Under the pieces are notes generated by a model. It searched no databases. It worked only from the letters and a program-made list of their open reading frames with translations, and was not told where the DNA came from. Both the position numbers and the translations under genes were made by a program. From Rhizobiales bacterium Y(2018) (GTDB taxonomy: Bacteria > Pseudomonadota > Alphaproteobacteria > Rhizobiales > Aestuariivirgaceae), in contig SCPD01000002.1 in NCBI GenBank assembly GCA_005502925.1, forward strand, positions 372,001 to 436,000: 64,000 nucleotides of DNA. Reading direction: 5' to 3'. Position 1 is the first letter of the stretch. Every line of letters begins with the position of its first letter. Below, piece by piece: positions 49,517-58,246 of the stretch.

Positions 49517-49611
49517 GCGGGCGAGCCTTGGCCTTTCGGAAGTGAAGCGATAGATTGCGGAAAAACAGAAAATGCCTGCCGGATTGGCCGGTGATGGGAG
49601 GAATAGGCGCA

Positions 49612-50268
49612 ATGCCAATTTATAGGGTCATCATCGTCGATGATCATCCATTGTTTCGCGCCGCCTTGAAACAGGCCCTGAGCGGCGCCTTCAAGGGCAT
49701 CGAGCTCGACGAGGCGGGAACCCTCGACGCCGTGACGGCGCGCCTCGACCGTGACAGCGATGTCGATCTGGTTCTGCTCGACCTCAAGATGCCGGGTGTC
49801 CAGGGCCTTTCCGGCCTCATGTTTCTGCGCGCCCAATATCCGGCCGTTCCGATTGCCATCGTCTCGGCGAGCGACGAGCCCCATATTATCCGCCGCGCCC
49901 TCGATCTCGGCGCTTCGGGCTTCATCCCGAAATCGCTCGCCGTCGAGGAGATGCGCCGGGCGGTTGCCGCCATTCTCGAAGGCGGCGTCTGGGCCCCGGA
50001 AGGTGTCGACGCCGCGAGCCCTGCCGACCGCGAAGGCGATGCACTAGCCCAGCGCGTCGCCAGCCTGACGCCGCAGCAGATGCGCGTCCTCATGATGCTG
50101 AAGGAGGGATTGCTCAACAAGCAGATCGCCTTCCAGCTCGGTGTTTCGGAAGCGACCGTCAAGGCGCATGTCTCCGCCATATTGCAGAAGCTCGATGTCG
50201 GCAGCCGCACCCAGGCAGTCATTGCCGCCGGCCGCATCGACGGCGAAAATCACGTGACGATGACATAG
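49612..50268 (+). CDS. crbR: LuxR-family response regulator, CrbR/ErdR-like
   Basis: A 218-residue NarL-type regulator. The receiver domain has acidic residues in VIIVDDHPLF and the phosphorylation site Asp57 in LVLLDLKMPG. The C-terminal helix-turn-helix is LTPQQMRVLMMLKEGL, then IAFQLGVSEATVKAHV. Size and sequence style match CrbR/ErdR, which activates acetyl-CoA synthetase genes. The partner kinase is encoded 0.5 kb away in the convergent direction. The symbol rests on architecture and neighbour, not on a database match. Confidence 0.85.
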   Translation: MPIYRVIIVDDHPLFRAALKQALSGAFKGIELDEAGTLDAVTARLDRDSDVDLVLLDLKMPGVQGLSGLMFLRAQYPAVPIAIVSASDEPHIIRRALDLGASGFIPKSLAVEEMRRAVAAILEGGVWAPEGVDAASPADREGDALAQRVASLTPQQMRVLMMLKEGLLNKQIAFQLGVSEATVKAHVSAILQKLDVGSRTQAVIAAGRIDGENHVTMT

Positions 50269-54842: not shown

Positions 54843-54872
54843 ACCCGGGTGCTTGCCACCCGGGTTCTTTTT
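54843..54872 (+). terminator. Rho-independent terminator of mscL
   Basis: ACCCGGGTG, loop CTTGC, CACCCGGGT, followed by TTCTTTTT. The 9-bp GC stem with a T-run is a textbook intrinsic terminator, and it lies only 16 bp before the next start codon. Confidence 0.85.
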
Positions 54873-54887
54873 GGCCGGGACCTTCCG

Positions 54888-56090
54888 ATGACCTCTCTTT
54901 CCGCCTCAGCCCTTCTCGACAGCATCACCAAGGCCAGCCGCGACGAGCCCGATTCAGGCATCATGGCGGCGGTCAATCACGGCATCGGGAGGCCCGACAT
55001 CATCCCGCTGTGGTCGGGCGAGGGCAATCTGCCGACGCCGGAAGCCTTTTGCCGCCCGGCGATCGAGAGCCTGCTCAAGGGCGAGACGTTTTATACGTGG
55101 CAGCGCGGCATTCCGCCCTTGCGCGAGGCGCTGGCCCGTTATCACAGCCGCCATTTTGGCCGTGCTTTCGAGGCGGAGAGTTTCTTCGTCACCGGCGGCG
55201 GCATGCAGGCGATCCAGACCATCCTGCAGATGATCGCCGGCGAGGGCGACGAGATCGTCCTGCCGACGCCGGCCTGGCCCAATTATGCCGGGCCCATGCG
55301 GCTCATGGGCGCCAAGCCTGTCGAGGTGGCGCTCGATTTCGCCAATGGCCGCTGGCATCTCGATCTCGACAAGCTCTTCGCGGCGATCACGCCCAAGAGC
55401 AAGGCGATCGTGCTCAACTCGCCCTCCAATCCGGTGGGCTGGACGGCGAGCCTCGATGATCTGAAAGCGGTGCGCGACGAATGCCGCAAGCGTGGCCTGT
55501 GGATCGTCGGCGACGAGGTCTATTTGCGCTTCTACTATGGCGACAAAGGCGAGCCCCGGGCGCCGTCCTTTCTCGATATCTGCGACACCGAGGAACGGCT
55601 CCTCCTCGCCAACACCTTCTCCAAGAATTGGGCGATGACCGGCTGGCGGGTCGGCTGGCTGCAGGCGCCCAAGGCTGTGGGTCCCGCCATCGAGCGCATC
55701 ATCCAGTACAACACGTCGGGCACCGCCGCCTTCCTGCAGCAGGGCTGCGCCGTGGCCCTCGATGAGGGCGAGGATTTCATCGCCGCGCAGGTCGCCAAGG
55801 CGCGCGCCAACCGCGATCTCGTCGCCGCCGCCTTGCGCGCGCACCCGCAGATCCGTTTTGAACTGCCCCGCGGCGCCTTTTACATGTTCTTCGCGCTCGA
55901 CGGCATGACCGACTCGCTTGCCACCACCTATCGCATCATCGACGAGGCCGGCATCGGGCTCGCCCCCGGCGGCACATTCGGCCCGGGCGGCGAAGGCTTT
56001 CTGCGCATGTGTTTCCTGCGCAATCCGGCGAAGCTCGGCGAAGCCATGGACCGCTTCGGCAAATGGCTGAAGACGTCGAAGCCGGTTTGA
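54888..56090 (+). CDS. PLP-dependent aminotransferase, class I/II
   Basis: A 400-residue aminotransferase. Family text includes FFVTGGGMQAIQTILQMI, NSPSNPVGWTA, VGDEVYLRFYYG, and the PLP lysine in NTFSKNWAMTGWRVGWL near residue 245. It belongs to the aspartate/aromatic group of fold-type I; the amino donor is not clear. It stands alone. The start ATG lacks a strong ribosome site, and the mscL terminator directly precedes it. Confidence 0.9.
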   Translation: MTSLSASALLDSITKASRDEPDSGIMAAVNHGIGRPDIIPLWSGEGNLPTPEAFCRPAIESLLKGETFYTWQRGIPPLREALARYHSRHFGRAFEAESFFVTGGGMQAIQTILQMIAGEGDEIVLPTPAWPNYAGPMRLMGAKPVEVALDFANGRWHLDLDKLFAAITPKSKAIVLNSPSNPVGWTASLDDLKAVRDECRKRGLWIVGDEVYLRFYYGDKGEPRAPSFLDICDTEERLLLANTFSKNWAMTGWRVGWLQAPKAVGPAIERIIQYNTSGTAAFLQQGCAVALDEGEDFIAAQVAKARANRDLVAAALRAHPQIRFELPRGAFYMFFALDGMTDSLATTYRIIDEAGIGLAPGGTFGPGGEGFLRMCFLRNPAKLGEAMDRFGKWLKTSKPV

Positions 56091-56420
56091 TCAAAACTTT
56101 TGCAGGCGCGAAGGCATGCTGCCCGAACGGGCGTTGCATTGCACAATGCGAAGGCATAGGGGTGATTTTCGGGTCCTGCCTCCGATTTTTGGATTTTGAG
56201 TTTTATTATTTAATATCAAGTTGATATAAGAATTTTCGAGACCCTCGATCAGTCTGGCACGACCGTTGCTATGCATACTGCATCGCAATATGTCGATTGG
56301 GGTTCCTCCCATCTCCTCAGGAAGCAATTGCGCAAACTCAGGTGCTCATGGGTTCCCCCCAACTTTGCACCAGGGGGCAGGCAGGTGAATGGTTGCGCCG
56401 GTCTGCCCCCGCCCATTTTT
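56091..56420. other. 330-bp intergenic region with an AT-rich block and a candidate sRNA unit
   Basis: No protein gene is supported here. An AT-rich block spans about 56185-56245 and includes the 7-bp dyad ATATCAA-G-TTGATAT (56213-56227). It is followed by a sigma-54 promoter consensus, a hairpin, and a terminator on the plus strand. The flanking genes converge on this region, so it is not a promoter for either of them. Confidence 0.7.
56254..56270 (+). promoter_or_regulatory. Sigma-54 (RpoN) promoter, perfect consensus
   Basis: CTGGCACGACCGTTGCT fits the full RpoN consensus YTGGCACG-N4-TTGCW with no mismatch, giving correct -24 GG and -12 GC spacing and a predicted start at 56281. The AT-rich block and dyad just upstream fit an IHF or activator region. 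There is no protein gene downstream on this strand. Confidence 0.65.
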
Positions 56421-56421
56421 T
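56281..56421 (+). ncRNA. Candidate sigma-54-dependent small RNA, about 141 nt
   Basis: Predicted from the promoter start to an intrinsic terminator: GGGGGCAG (56373) pairs with CTGCCCCC (56403), and six T follow at 56416-56421. Near the 5' end, TTCCT (56303) and AGGAA (56319) close a loop CCCATCTCCTC that is complementary to ribosome binding sites. This resembles the anti-Shine-Dalgarno hairpins of several rhizobial trans-acting sRNAs. CCCCCC at 56355 could also pair with the terminator's G-run, an alternative fold. A 78-codon open frame starting at 56271 exists but looks non-coding. Confidence 0.4.
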
Positions 56422-57368
56422 CACGAAATGCTCTGCCGGATGTCCTTGGCGATGGCTTTCTGCGCATCGAACTGGGCGCGCCGCCGCGCGATCTCTTCGG
56501 GCGATAGCCTGTCGATATTGCAGTAGTCGAGCTTCCACGCGACCGAGTTGCTCCAGCGCAAGGGCGATTGCACCGTGGTTCTGGCCGCCGGCGCGTTCTC
56601 GAGAAGCTCCAGCGCCAGATCGAGCGTGAAATCCTGGGATGCCTCGTCCTTCGGCCGCCCGGCTGAATTGCCGAGCGGAAAGTCCGAGAACAGGAAGCGC
56701 GGCACGCCGACATATTCGACGATGTCCTTGGCCGCGCCCATGACGACCGTCGCGATGCCTTCTGCTTCGAGCGTCCGTGCCGCGAGGCTCACCGTCTGAT
56801 GGCAGACCGGGCAGTTCGGCACCAGGATCGCCGCGTCGGCCTTGTCCGCGCGGCAGTGCCGGACGATCTCCGGACAGTCGGTTTCGAGCGTCGCGCGGTG
56901 GCTGCGATTGGTCGGCGCGCCATGGAAGCGTTCCGCCAGCGCGCCGAACCGGCCGCGCGCCTGCGCCCGCCGCATCGCGGCAAGCGGGAAATAGGCGCCC
57001 TGATCTTCCGCCGTCGTATGGGCGCGGTCGATGGCGACATGCGAGATGCGCAGATCGTGGTCTTGCGCCGTGTCGCCGGAATAGACCTGATAGAATTTCG
57101 CCGCCGCATTATAGGCAGCCCCCGGTCCCTGATCGCCCTTGTCCGGCTGATAGGGAGCGGCGGTGGTGATGAGCGCGATGCGGCAGTCGGTCAAGGGCCG
57201 GCTCAAGCGCGCGAAGGGCGCATCCGCATAATGCGCCCAGCGATAGGGTGCGCCATAGCCCAGGGCCGAATAATAATCGCGTATCCGGTCAAGATAGGGA
57301 ATGGGCGCATCGAGCGCATCGGCGAAACCGAACTCCTCGCGCTCGTCTGTTCGATCCGTGCTGGTCAT
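56421..57368 (-). CDS. GrdB-like protein (glycine/sarcosine/betaine reductase selenoprotein B family), Cys form
   Basis: A 315-residue protein related to the substrate-specific B subunit of glycine/sarcosine/betaine reductases. The selenocysteine region of GrdB corresponds here to DAAILVPNCPVCHQT, with Cys186 and Cys189 and no UGA. KGDQGPGAAYN and LTTAAPYQ-type text (LITTAAPYQPDKG) also fit the family. Such Cys homologues occur in aerobes without the rest of the reductase, so their reaction is unknown; redox or methylamine chemistry is possible. I start at MTSTDRTDEREE; the frame upstream overlaps the divergent gene. Confidence 0.8.
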   Translation of the reverse strand: MTSTDRTDEREEFGFADALDAPIPYLDRIRDYYSALGYGAPYRWAHYADAPFARLSRPLTDCRIALITTAAPYQPDKGDQGPGAAYNAAAKFYQVYSGDTAQDHDLRISHVAIDRAHTTAEDQGAYFPLAAMRRAQARGRFGALAERFHGAPTNRSHRATLETDCPEIVRHCRADKADAAILVPNCPVCHQTVSLAARTLEAEGIATVVMGAAKDIVEYVGVPRFLFSDFPLGNSAGRPKDEASQDFTLDLALELLENAPAARTTVQSPLRWSNSVAWKLDYCNIDRLSPEEIARRRAQFDAQKAIAKDIRQSIS

Positions 57369-57385
57369 GTTAGGAGCTTGCCACT

Positions 57386-58246
57386 GTGGCGGACGGGGTG
57401 CAAATGGCGGCGGCGATGATACGGAGCATCGATCAGGGCATGGATGAGGCGGTGGTCGCGCGCATCGAGGCGCGTCTCGCCGATATAGGCCGCGACCACC
57501 GGGTGGCAATCCCGCTCGCCATCGAAAGCGGCAGCCGGGCCTGGGGCTTTCCCTCGCCCGACAGCGACTATGACTGCCGTTTCGTCTTCGTCCGGCCGCT
57601 CGATCATTATCTGTCCCCGTGGCAGCGCCGCGATGTCATCGAGACGCCGATGGACGGGATTCTCGACGTCAATGGCTGGGATCTCGGCAAGGCCCTCAAG
57701 CTGTTGCTCAAAGGCAATGCGGTGATCATCGAATGGCTGAATTCACCGATCGCCTATGGTGTCGATCCGGGCTTCCGCCAGGAGTTCCTGGATCTCGCCC
57801 GCGACGTCGCCGATCGCCGCCTGGTGGCGCGTCACTATCTGCATCTGGGCGAGCGCCAGCGGCGTGAGTATTTCGGTGACGACCGCATCGTCGCGCTGAA
57901 GAAGATATTCTATGCGCTCCGCCCGGCCGCCGCCTTGCGCTGGCTGCGCCATCATCCGCAACAGGCGGTGGCGCCCATGCATTTTTCGACCTTGCTCAAG
58001 GGGTGCGAGGCGCCCGCCGCGGTCGTCGAAATCATCGAGGACCTGATGGCGCGCAAGGCGGTCACGCGCGAGCTGGGCTCCGGCCCGCTGCCCGAGCCGG
58101 TGCGCGCCTTCATCGATGCGGAGTTCGAGGAAAGTCGGAACGCGTTTCCCCAGAAGCCGCAGGCCATCAACCCGGACTCCCGTGCCCGCGCCGAGGCCTT
58201 CTTCCAGACCACGATCCGGCGCTTCTCCGAAAATCCCTCACCCTGA
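57386..58246 (+). CDS. RlaP-type nucleotidyltransferase (DNA polymerase beta superfamily)
   Basis: A 286-residue protein of the YcgL/RlaP family. The nucleotidyltransferase motif appears as ESGSRAWGFPSPDSDYDCRF, with the metal-binding aspartates in SDYD. The rest is helical. RlaP members are often linked to RNA-ligase or repair loci, but no such partner is here. I start at GTG, 9 nt after AGGAG; in-frame ATGs lie 6 and 10 codons later. It is divergent from the GrdB-like gene by 17 bp. Confidence 0.82.
   Translation: MADGVQMAAAMIRSIDQGMDEAVVARIEARLADIGRDHRVAIPLAIESGSRAWGFPSPDSDYDCRFVFVRPLDHYLSPWQRRDVIETPMDGILDVNGWDLGKALKLLLKGNAVIIEWLNSPIAYGVDPGFRQEFLDLARDVADRRLVARHYLHLGERQRREYFGDDRIVALKKIFYALRPAAALRWLRHHPQQAVAPMHFSTLLKGCEAPAAVVEIIEDLMARKAVTRELGSGPLPEPVRAFIDAEFEESRNAFPQKPQAINPDSRARAEAFFQTTIRRFSENPSP

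Follow-up and report, generated by a model that had tools for sequence, protein, structure and literature searches.

A predicted sigma-54-driven small RNA with an anti-Shine-Dalgarno loop in many genomes of one bacterial family

What does a perfect sigma-54 promoter transcribe when neither flanking gene is placed to use it? Such a promoter occurs in the 64,000-nucleotide stretch analyzed here (the window), which belongs to contig C22 of a 7.1 Mb genome. The -24/-12 element TGGCACGACCGTTGCT (TGGCAC-N5-TTGCT, 56255-56270, + strand) is the sole match without mismatch to TGGCACGNNNNTTGCW within the window, so that the full-consensus RpoN site reported in the initial annotation stands. If up to two mismatches are allowed, seven matches are found, compared with a mean of 11 in shuffled sequences; since mismatched sites are no commoner than in shuffles, only the perfect match stands out. 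The GC of the -12 element at 56268-56269 gives a predicted transcription start at about 56280-56281, in agreement with the earlier prediction of a start near 56281. A class I/II aminotransferase gene (54849-56090, + strand; PF00155 by Pfam match), preceded by mscL, lies upstream as a conserved neighbor outside the RNA, and a convergent ORF (56421-57509, - strand), whose stop codon meets the end of a T run, lies downstream; as had been pointed out, this arrangement leaves neither gene positioned to use the promoter. The convergent ORF has no Pfam family at E ≤ 1e-5, and its relatives are common in Bradyrhizobium and others. Also near the locus are an RlaP-type RNA-repair nucleotidyltransferase gene (PF10127, 57386-58246, + strand) and a trimethylamine methyltransferase gene (MTTB, PF06253, 58365-59939, - strand).

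The initial annotation had regarded loss of promoter and terminator in relatives as evidence against a small RNA at this site; both turn out to be conserved. DNA matches in the four other genomes of the genus span 56243-56253 to 56421-56425, and by DNA comparison all five genomes of the genus and two further genomes of the family carry the locus. A covariance model (R1) made from these seven sequences, with the promoter left out, matched 26 of the 69 family genomes at E ≤ 1. The covariance search in relatives that had been suggested was extended with a second model (R2), also without the promoter, which places the RNA in 34 of the 69 family genomes at E ≤ 0.01. These belong to three of the ten genera: the genus of the window (5 of 5 genomes), g5 (28 of 37) and g6 (1 of 1), with none in the seven other genera. 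A weak second R1 match in G001 (E 0.08) has no sigma-54 site and was not counted. Tandem pairs were found in four genomes (G068, G019, G087 and G061; loci L157, L165, L109 and L119), and G073 has two matches on separate contigs. In G068, G019 and G087 both members of the pair are preceded by a promoter; in G061 the second copy lacks one where it would be expected. To look beyond the family, a strict pattern of promoter plus core was applied to 397 genomes of the order and gave two matches, both within the genus. R2 found no convincing outside member among 297 genomes of the order, in a search whose filters discard weak matches: there were ten matches at E ≤ 0.01, eight in the family and two marginal ones, and about three matches would be expected by chance. 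The two marginal candidates, G109 and G039 (R2 E values of 0.003 and 0.008), were rejected, as they showed no core accompanied by a promoter and a T run. Of 80 loci outside the genus that hold relatives of the downstream gene, 17 were scanned with R1 alongside the window, which alone matched.

A sigma-54-type site is present at the expected place in all 18 independent loci, that is, R1 matches that are absent from the R1 model and have upstream sequence present, compared with 0.85% of random windows (1,695/200,000). The pattern counted was TGG[CT][AC][CT]-N5-[AT]TGC within 55 nucleotides around the RNA start and, like the pattern for the upstream box considered below, it had been widened from the strict consensus after the loci had been read. 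Sites of this type precede the RNA in all 25 compared loci and in 11 further copies, the latter having TGGCA[CT]-N5-TTGC. A chance promoter is excluded because the DNA is conserved in the genus genomes, and together with the family models and the 18 of 18 sites this conservation also rules out a decayed one.

The predicted small RNA, delimited by R1 and R2, is about 141 nucleotides long in the window (56280-56421, + strand) and 113-147 nucleotides long across the 25 loci. It is predicted to fold into a 5′ hairpin (56284-56332), a middle hairpin (56341-56371), which most of the relatives folded also have, with variable sequence, and a terminator hairpin with a T run (56373-56421). The whole RNA is more stable than shuffled sequences (z = -2.49); taken by itself, the 5′ hairpin is not (z = -0.20). 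The loop of the 5′ hairpin is predicted as UUCCUCCCAUCU (56303-56314) and contains the core UCCUCCCAU (56304-56312), which is complementary to ribosome-binding sites. A hairpin with an anti-Shine-Dalgarno loop, as initially described, is thus retained, but the loop lies a few bases 5′ of the CCCATCTCCTC named at that time. The core does not vary among the 36 aligned copies, which had been picked by a search for TCCTCCC, itself part of the core. In minimum-energy folds it is enclosed as a hairpin loop in 30 of the 36 copies, and its mean unpaired probability is 0.88; shuffling the flanks brings these values down to 12% and 0.59. In the remaining six copies the predicted fold does not loop out the core. 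The alignment takes in 36 of the 39 R2 matches and omits G061:504-648, the G073 match on C44, which is cut by the contig start, and the G073 match on C63. The omitted G061:504-648 copy has UUCCUCCCUA as its core and lacks a promoter where one would be expected. The middle hairpin of the window RNA contains a further C-rich stretch, UUCCCCCC (56353-56360), which recalls the UUCCCCUC motif of AbcR; it is not preserved in g5 and varies in the family.

The terminator consists of a hairpin at 56373-56410 (10 base pairs plus an inner 4 base pairs) and six T nucleotides at 56416-56421. The six T nucleotides that had been described are confirmed, but the stem starts about 92 nucleotides past the predicted start rather than 102. 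The gap between stem and T run is five nucleotides in all five genus genomes and one to two nucleotides in most other loci of the family, and a strict terminator scan did not list this terminator because of the five-base gap. Nine of its ten predicted pairs are kept through two-sided changes among 28 sequences, scored on an alignment fitted to the structure of R1 itself. RNAalifold, with either 28 or 36 sequences, recovers only the terminator and a 4-bp stem beneath the loop, so that the outer part of the 5′ hairpin comes from single-sequence folds only.

Could the conserved sequence be something other than an independent RNA, such as a leader peptide, the 3′-terminal part of the aminotransferase mRNA or a transcript antisense to the downstream gene? 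Its position between the aminotransferase gene and the convergent ORF would fit, and the C-termini of the upstream genes identify an aminotransferase in 21 of the 25 loci. Nevertheless, this explanation is very improbable, given a sigma-54-type site ahead of every one of the 25 loci and 11 further copies. The ORFs contained in the RNA (0-39 amino acids) are not shared across genera; no conserved ORF was found within it, and a coding region was ruled out on this ground. The downstream gene differs from genus to genus, and G002 and G009 retain the RNA next to an upstream gene that is not an aminotransferase; in G081 and G082 an mscL-like gene lies directly upstream. Such variation on both sides suggests that the RNA is a unit of its own. 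In G089, a terC RNA (RF03067; L108:1704-1756) occurs about 70 nucleotides downstream of the small RNA. A sigma-54 small RNA with an anti-Shine-Dalgarno loop, as first proposed, is still the best reading, being supported by the conserved promoter, core and terminator; judged from sequence comparison, a sigma-54-driven non-coding RNA of this kind almost certainly exists at the locus, and it has the appearance of a non-coding transcript whose seed is fixed.

Small RNAs driven by sigma-54 are well known in gammaproteobacteria, among them Qrr, which occurs in several copies, GlmY/GlmZ, CrcZ and NrsZ. The RNA described here resembles them in its candidate enhancer, its -24/-12 promoter and its predicted short transcript with a terminator, whereas their sequences, activators and targets differ from those predicted here. 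A phrase search of the open-licence literature for RpoN- or sigma54-dependent sRNAs or small RNAs returned a single paper, on Enterobacteriaceae, and no description of the present RNA was found in the open-licence texts consulted. RpoN motifs have been predicted for some rhizobial small RNAs, according to the accessible part of one study (PMC7143759).

Is the RNA then already known under another name? The prime suspect was MmgR (alpha-r8, RF00519), on account of its core, its regulators and its predicted RpoN motif. In the available excerpts, MmgR is under positive control by NtrC and negative control by PhaR/AniA, with a PhaR site in its promoter (PMC7143759, PMC8401924, PMC12542648), and a table of predicted motifs gives it both RpoD and RpoN (PMC7143759). 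Its anti-Shine-Dalgarno core UUUCCUCCCU has UCCUCCC, seven bases, in common with UCCUCCCAU. In contrast, MmgR is 77 nucleotides long, and the excerpted drawing of its promoter has -35/-10 elements (PMC12542648), whereas the present RNA is longer (113-147 nucleotides) and has a conserved -24/-12 promoter. The host genome carries two other genes that match RF00519 with 60.3 and 43.8 bits (gathering threshold 41), L236:2587-2666 (+ strand, contig C32) and L237:2757-2830 (- strand, contig C22). One adjoins an N-formylglutamate amidohydrolase gene (PF05013), which is also the neighbor of alpha-r8 in the portion of the literature available (PMC12559287), and the other lies just downstream of an aldehyde dehydrogenase gene. 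The present RNA has no RF00519 match at E ≤ 1 in seven of its loci, and a scan of the window gave none either. Identity with MmgR is thus ruled out.

The RNA might instead be a diverged member of the MmgR or AbcR families, and several features speak for this alternative: the shared UCCUCCC, a first AbcR anti-Shine-Dalgarno motif (CUCCUCCC) that likewise lies in a 5′ hairpin loop, three stem-loops, similar regulators, and the RpoD and RpoN motifs predicted for MmgR in the accessible table (PMC7143759). In the sections available, AbcR1 and AbcR2 (alpha-r15) share with the present RNA the three stem-loops and the motif in the 5′ loop, and they act mostly on mRNAs for transport and metabolism (PMC8844928). 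However, we consider membership improbable. The 10-nucleotide MmgR core is absent, as all 36 copies have A at its last U, immediately after CCC, and the length does not correspond to 77 nucleotides. The AbcR/alpha-r15 Rfam models found nothing in 56050-56500 at E ≤ 10 or in the seven loci at E ≤ 1; the sole Rfam match in 56050-56500 at E ≤ 10 is to a snoRNA model (E 1.2), so that the RNA matches no known Rfam family. AbcR has two anti-Shine-Dalgarno motifs, CUCCUCCC and UUCCCCUC, whereas one motif is conserved across the family here, and the same sections have AbcR1 driven by LsrB and AbcR2 by RpoH1 (PMC8844928), in contrast to the predicted sigma-54 site. NfeR1 (alpha-r14) is comparable in its anti-Shine-Dalgarno motif and in nitrogen-linked control, which is predicted for the present RNA, and its validated targets, as given in the extracts, are periplasmic binding proteins (PMC10746234, PMC8844928). 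It differs in having, by the same extracts, three identical CCUCCUCCC motifs rather than one conserved core, and in being repressed by NtrC from a promoter that the available text states to be without a sigma-54 signature (PMC10746234). By the tests made, the present RNA belongs to neither the MmgR nor the AbcR family, although by analogy it may work like both, and it seems to be a small regulatory RNA gene so far undescribed, carried by many members of the family.

The conserved unit also extends upstream of the promoter. In the window, a box TGCATTGCACA, followed by A, at 56135-56145 (+ strand) fits the PhaR/AniA consensus TGCRNYGCASMA and lies about 118 nucleotides ahead of the -24 element. 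That consensus was deduced by footprinting and by aligning promoters of Bradyrhizobium diazoefficiens, as the consulted part of the report has it (PMC6201568). Matches to TGCAYTGCACA in at least 9 of 11 positions were found 106-130 nucleotides before the -24 element, mostly 115-120, in 23 of the 25 loci (the exceptions being G004 and G081), and in 17 of the 18 loci outside R1, compared with 1.2% of random windows. For five of the 11 further copies no box was found within 160 nucleotides, three of these being the first copy of a tandem pair; in G068, G019 and G087 a box within 160 nucleotides occurs only at the second copy. The box resembles the phaP1 and phaP2 sites of Sinorhizobium meliloti in the excerpts available (PMC12542648), while the PhaR sites described in such excerpts are near -35/-10 promoters. 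A PhaR gene (PF07879) is present in all 34 RNA-bearing genomes and the RNA in none of the 14 genomes without PhaR, a co-occurrence that is confounded with phylogeny.

Overlapping the PhaR-like box is a TGC-N11-GCA element with NtrC spacing (56140-56156, + strand), a candidate sigma-54 enhancer; the available text gives this motif for NtrC in S. meliloti (PMC10746234). It is exact in 10 of the 23 loci, and at least two GCA bases are present in 21 of the 23; its right half is degenerate, with the C position invariant in 23 of 23. Between the box and the promoter is an IHF-like site, TATCAAGTTGATA (56214-56226, + strand), matching 8 of 9 informative positions. Counted from the first T of the -24 element, the best IHF-like match falls between -39 and -41 in 18 of the 25 loci, with a mean score of 8.24 of 9 compared with 7.07 in shuffles. 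As the score at the window locus is equalled by 33 of 100 shuffles, single scores are unremarkable, and it is the fixed place that constitutes the evidence. Comparison of the loci thus shows a predicted stand-alone unit, composed of box, IHF-like site, -24/-12 promoter, an RNA with a mostly exposed UCCUCCCAU loop and a terminator, which has been kept while the downstream genes changed.

The same box can be read differently, as a site for NtrC or another enhancer-binding protein of the same sigma-54 RNA, with an accidental likeness to PhaR sites, both motifs containing TGCA. Sigma-54 promoters, which often serve nitrogen control, require an enhancer, the distance is enhancer-like with an IHF-like site between, and TGC-N11-GCA fits the NtrC spacing. 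On the other hand, the best-conserved part is the PhaR-like TGCAYTGCACA and not the right half of the NtrC element, within 23 rows that were themselves chosen by that 11-mer, and the RNA is found only in genomes with PhaR. We regard an enhancer-only box as rather unlikely, though by some way the strongest of the alternatives, and a promoter gated by both nitrogen and PhaR as having about an even chance.

The initial annotation had also suggested target prediction on transporter mRNAs. The pattern ATGGGAGGA-N3-12-ATG, which is complementary to the whole core, has 22 matches in the host genome, whereas the reversed-pattern control has none. An ORF of at least 80 amino acids follows in 20 of the 22, and 11 of these 20 encode solute-binding proteins (SBP_bac_1, 5 or 8, Peripla_BP_4 and TctC). 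The others are an ABC permease, an ABC ATPase, an MFS transporter, a DUF4212 protein, a TetR regulator, a response regulator, an E1 dehydrogenase, a DUF5801 protein and an 82-amino-acid ORF without family. Among control genes with other GGAGG sites, 11 of 73 are of the solute-binding type, one of them an NMT1 domain protein, a lower proportion than among the candidates (11 of 20; P = 6×10−4, Fisher's exact test). These controls were drawn from 864 kb of the host genome with ORFs of at least 150 amino acids, compared with at least 80 for the candidates; 19 of the 73 were looked up singly and the rest classified from a tally listing 25 of 107 families and a reading of N-termini. With the 150-amino-acid cut-off for both sets, 11 of 18 candidates are solute-binding proteins (P = 2×10−4), and with all 22 matches counted, 11 of 22 (P = 1.4×10−3). 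Three of eight control genes with GGGAGGA are solute-binding protein genes, and the enrichment may reflect strong Shine-Dalgarno sites typical of this gene class. Since solute-binding protein genes tend to have strong ribosome-binding sites, the enrichment supports targeting and does not prove it. Labeling of 629 crude gene calls was discarded as unusable, the seeds having been chosen by GGAGG, which made it circular for Shine-Dalgarno strength. Complementary ribosome-binding sites are thus rich in solute-binding proteins, in line with the suggested transporter targets, and whether the RNA acts on transporter genes appears, from this complementarity, close to evenly balanced. Within the window, one candidate target site ATGGGAGGA (49594-49614, + strand), based on complementarity only, precedes the start at 49612 of a LuxR-type response regulator gene.

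Alternatively, the RNA might act mainly by binding a protein or another small RNA. CrcZ and CsrB are protein-sponge RNAs, and sponges of this kind driven by sigma-54 exist. A G/A-rich RNA of Caulobacter acts as a sponge for the alpha-r8 core, according to the portion of the study at hand (PMC12559287). The present RNA has a single conserved unpaired motif and no repeated sites, and its loop, being C-rich like the MmgR core, is unable to pair with that core, yet complements ribosome-binding sites; we would give a sponge only a slight chance. Pairing of the loop with mRNAs is the reading that we retain. A trans-acting small RNA with nitrogen (NtrC) and PhaR input and with solute-binding protein mRNAs as targets is, in our judgment, somewhat probable.

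The mechanism could be as follows. When nitrogen is limiting, an enhancer-binding protein (NtrC being the likeliest) would bind the TGC-N11-GCA element, IHF would bend the DNA, and sigma-54 polymerase would transcribe the RNA. When storage polymer is scarce, PhaR, which senses PHB, would occupy the overlapping TGCAYTGCACAA box and block activation; as polymer accumulates, PhaR would be drawn off the box. The RNA would then be produced during nitrogen shortage combined with carbon surplus. Base pairing of its loop with AUGGGAGGA ribosome-binding sites, chiefly those of genes for solute-binding proteins in uptake systems, would lower translation of the targets, perhaps with Hfq. Precedents in the available excerpts are MmgR for NtrC and PhaR input and AbcR and NfeR1 for transporter targets (PMC7143759, PMC8844928). 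The earlier guess that the RNA ties nitrogen or carbon status to transporters gains some support because a PhaR/NtrC-like box and transporter-rich complementary ribosome-binding sites have now been found. Taken as a whole, a two-signal gate in which the enhancer is overlapped by a PhaR box, controlling an RNA that shuts nutrient uptake and arose independently of MmgR by convergence, is a tentative proposal with somewhat less than an even chance. If true, it would be a convergent solution to one carbon/nitrogen problem in genomes that also keep MmgR genes. With a complete predicted sigma-54 promoter, a defined seed and only a few candidate targets, this family makes it possible to test how nitrogen status and carbon storage might be joined at one small RNA promoter and why MmgR genes and the present RNA coexist in one genome.

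The 11-mer box also occurs elsewhere in the host genome. There are seven occurrences, six of them away from this locus, about as many as the 6.8 estimated from uniform base composition, and the reversed-pattern control has none. One copy immediately precedes the start codon of a G6PDH (zwf)-like gene (L130:1516), and another is upstream of an aldehyde-dehydrogenase-like gene (L133:1618), both genes being named by reading. In the part of the S. meliloti study available, zwf is a weakly bound and mildly repressed PhaR target (PMC12542648), and these two copies are perhaps part of a PhaR regulon. In addition, a second, weaker block, TGCTGCC or TGCTGCTTTTT, is found ahead of the box in many loci (about 56117-56123 in the window) and is possibly a second activator site.
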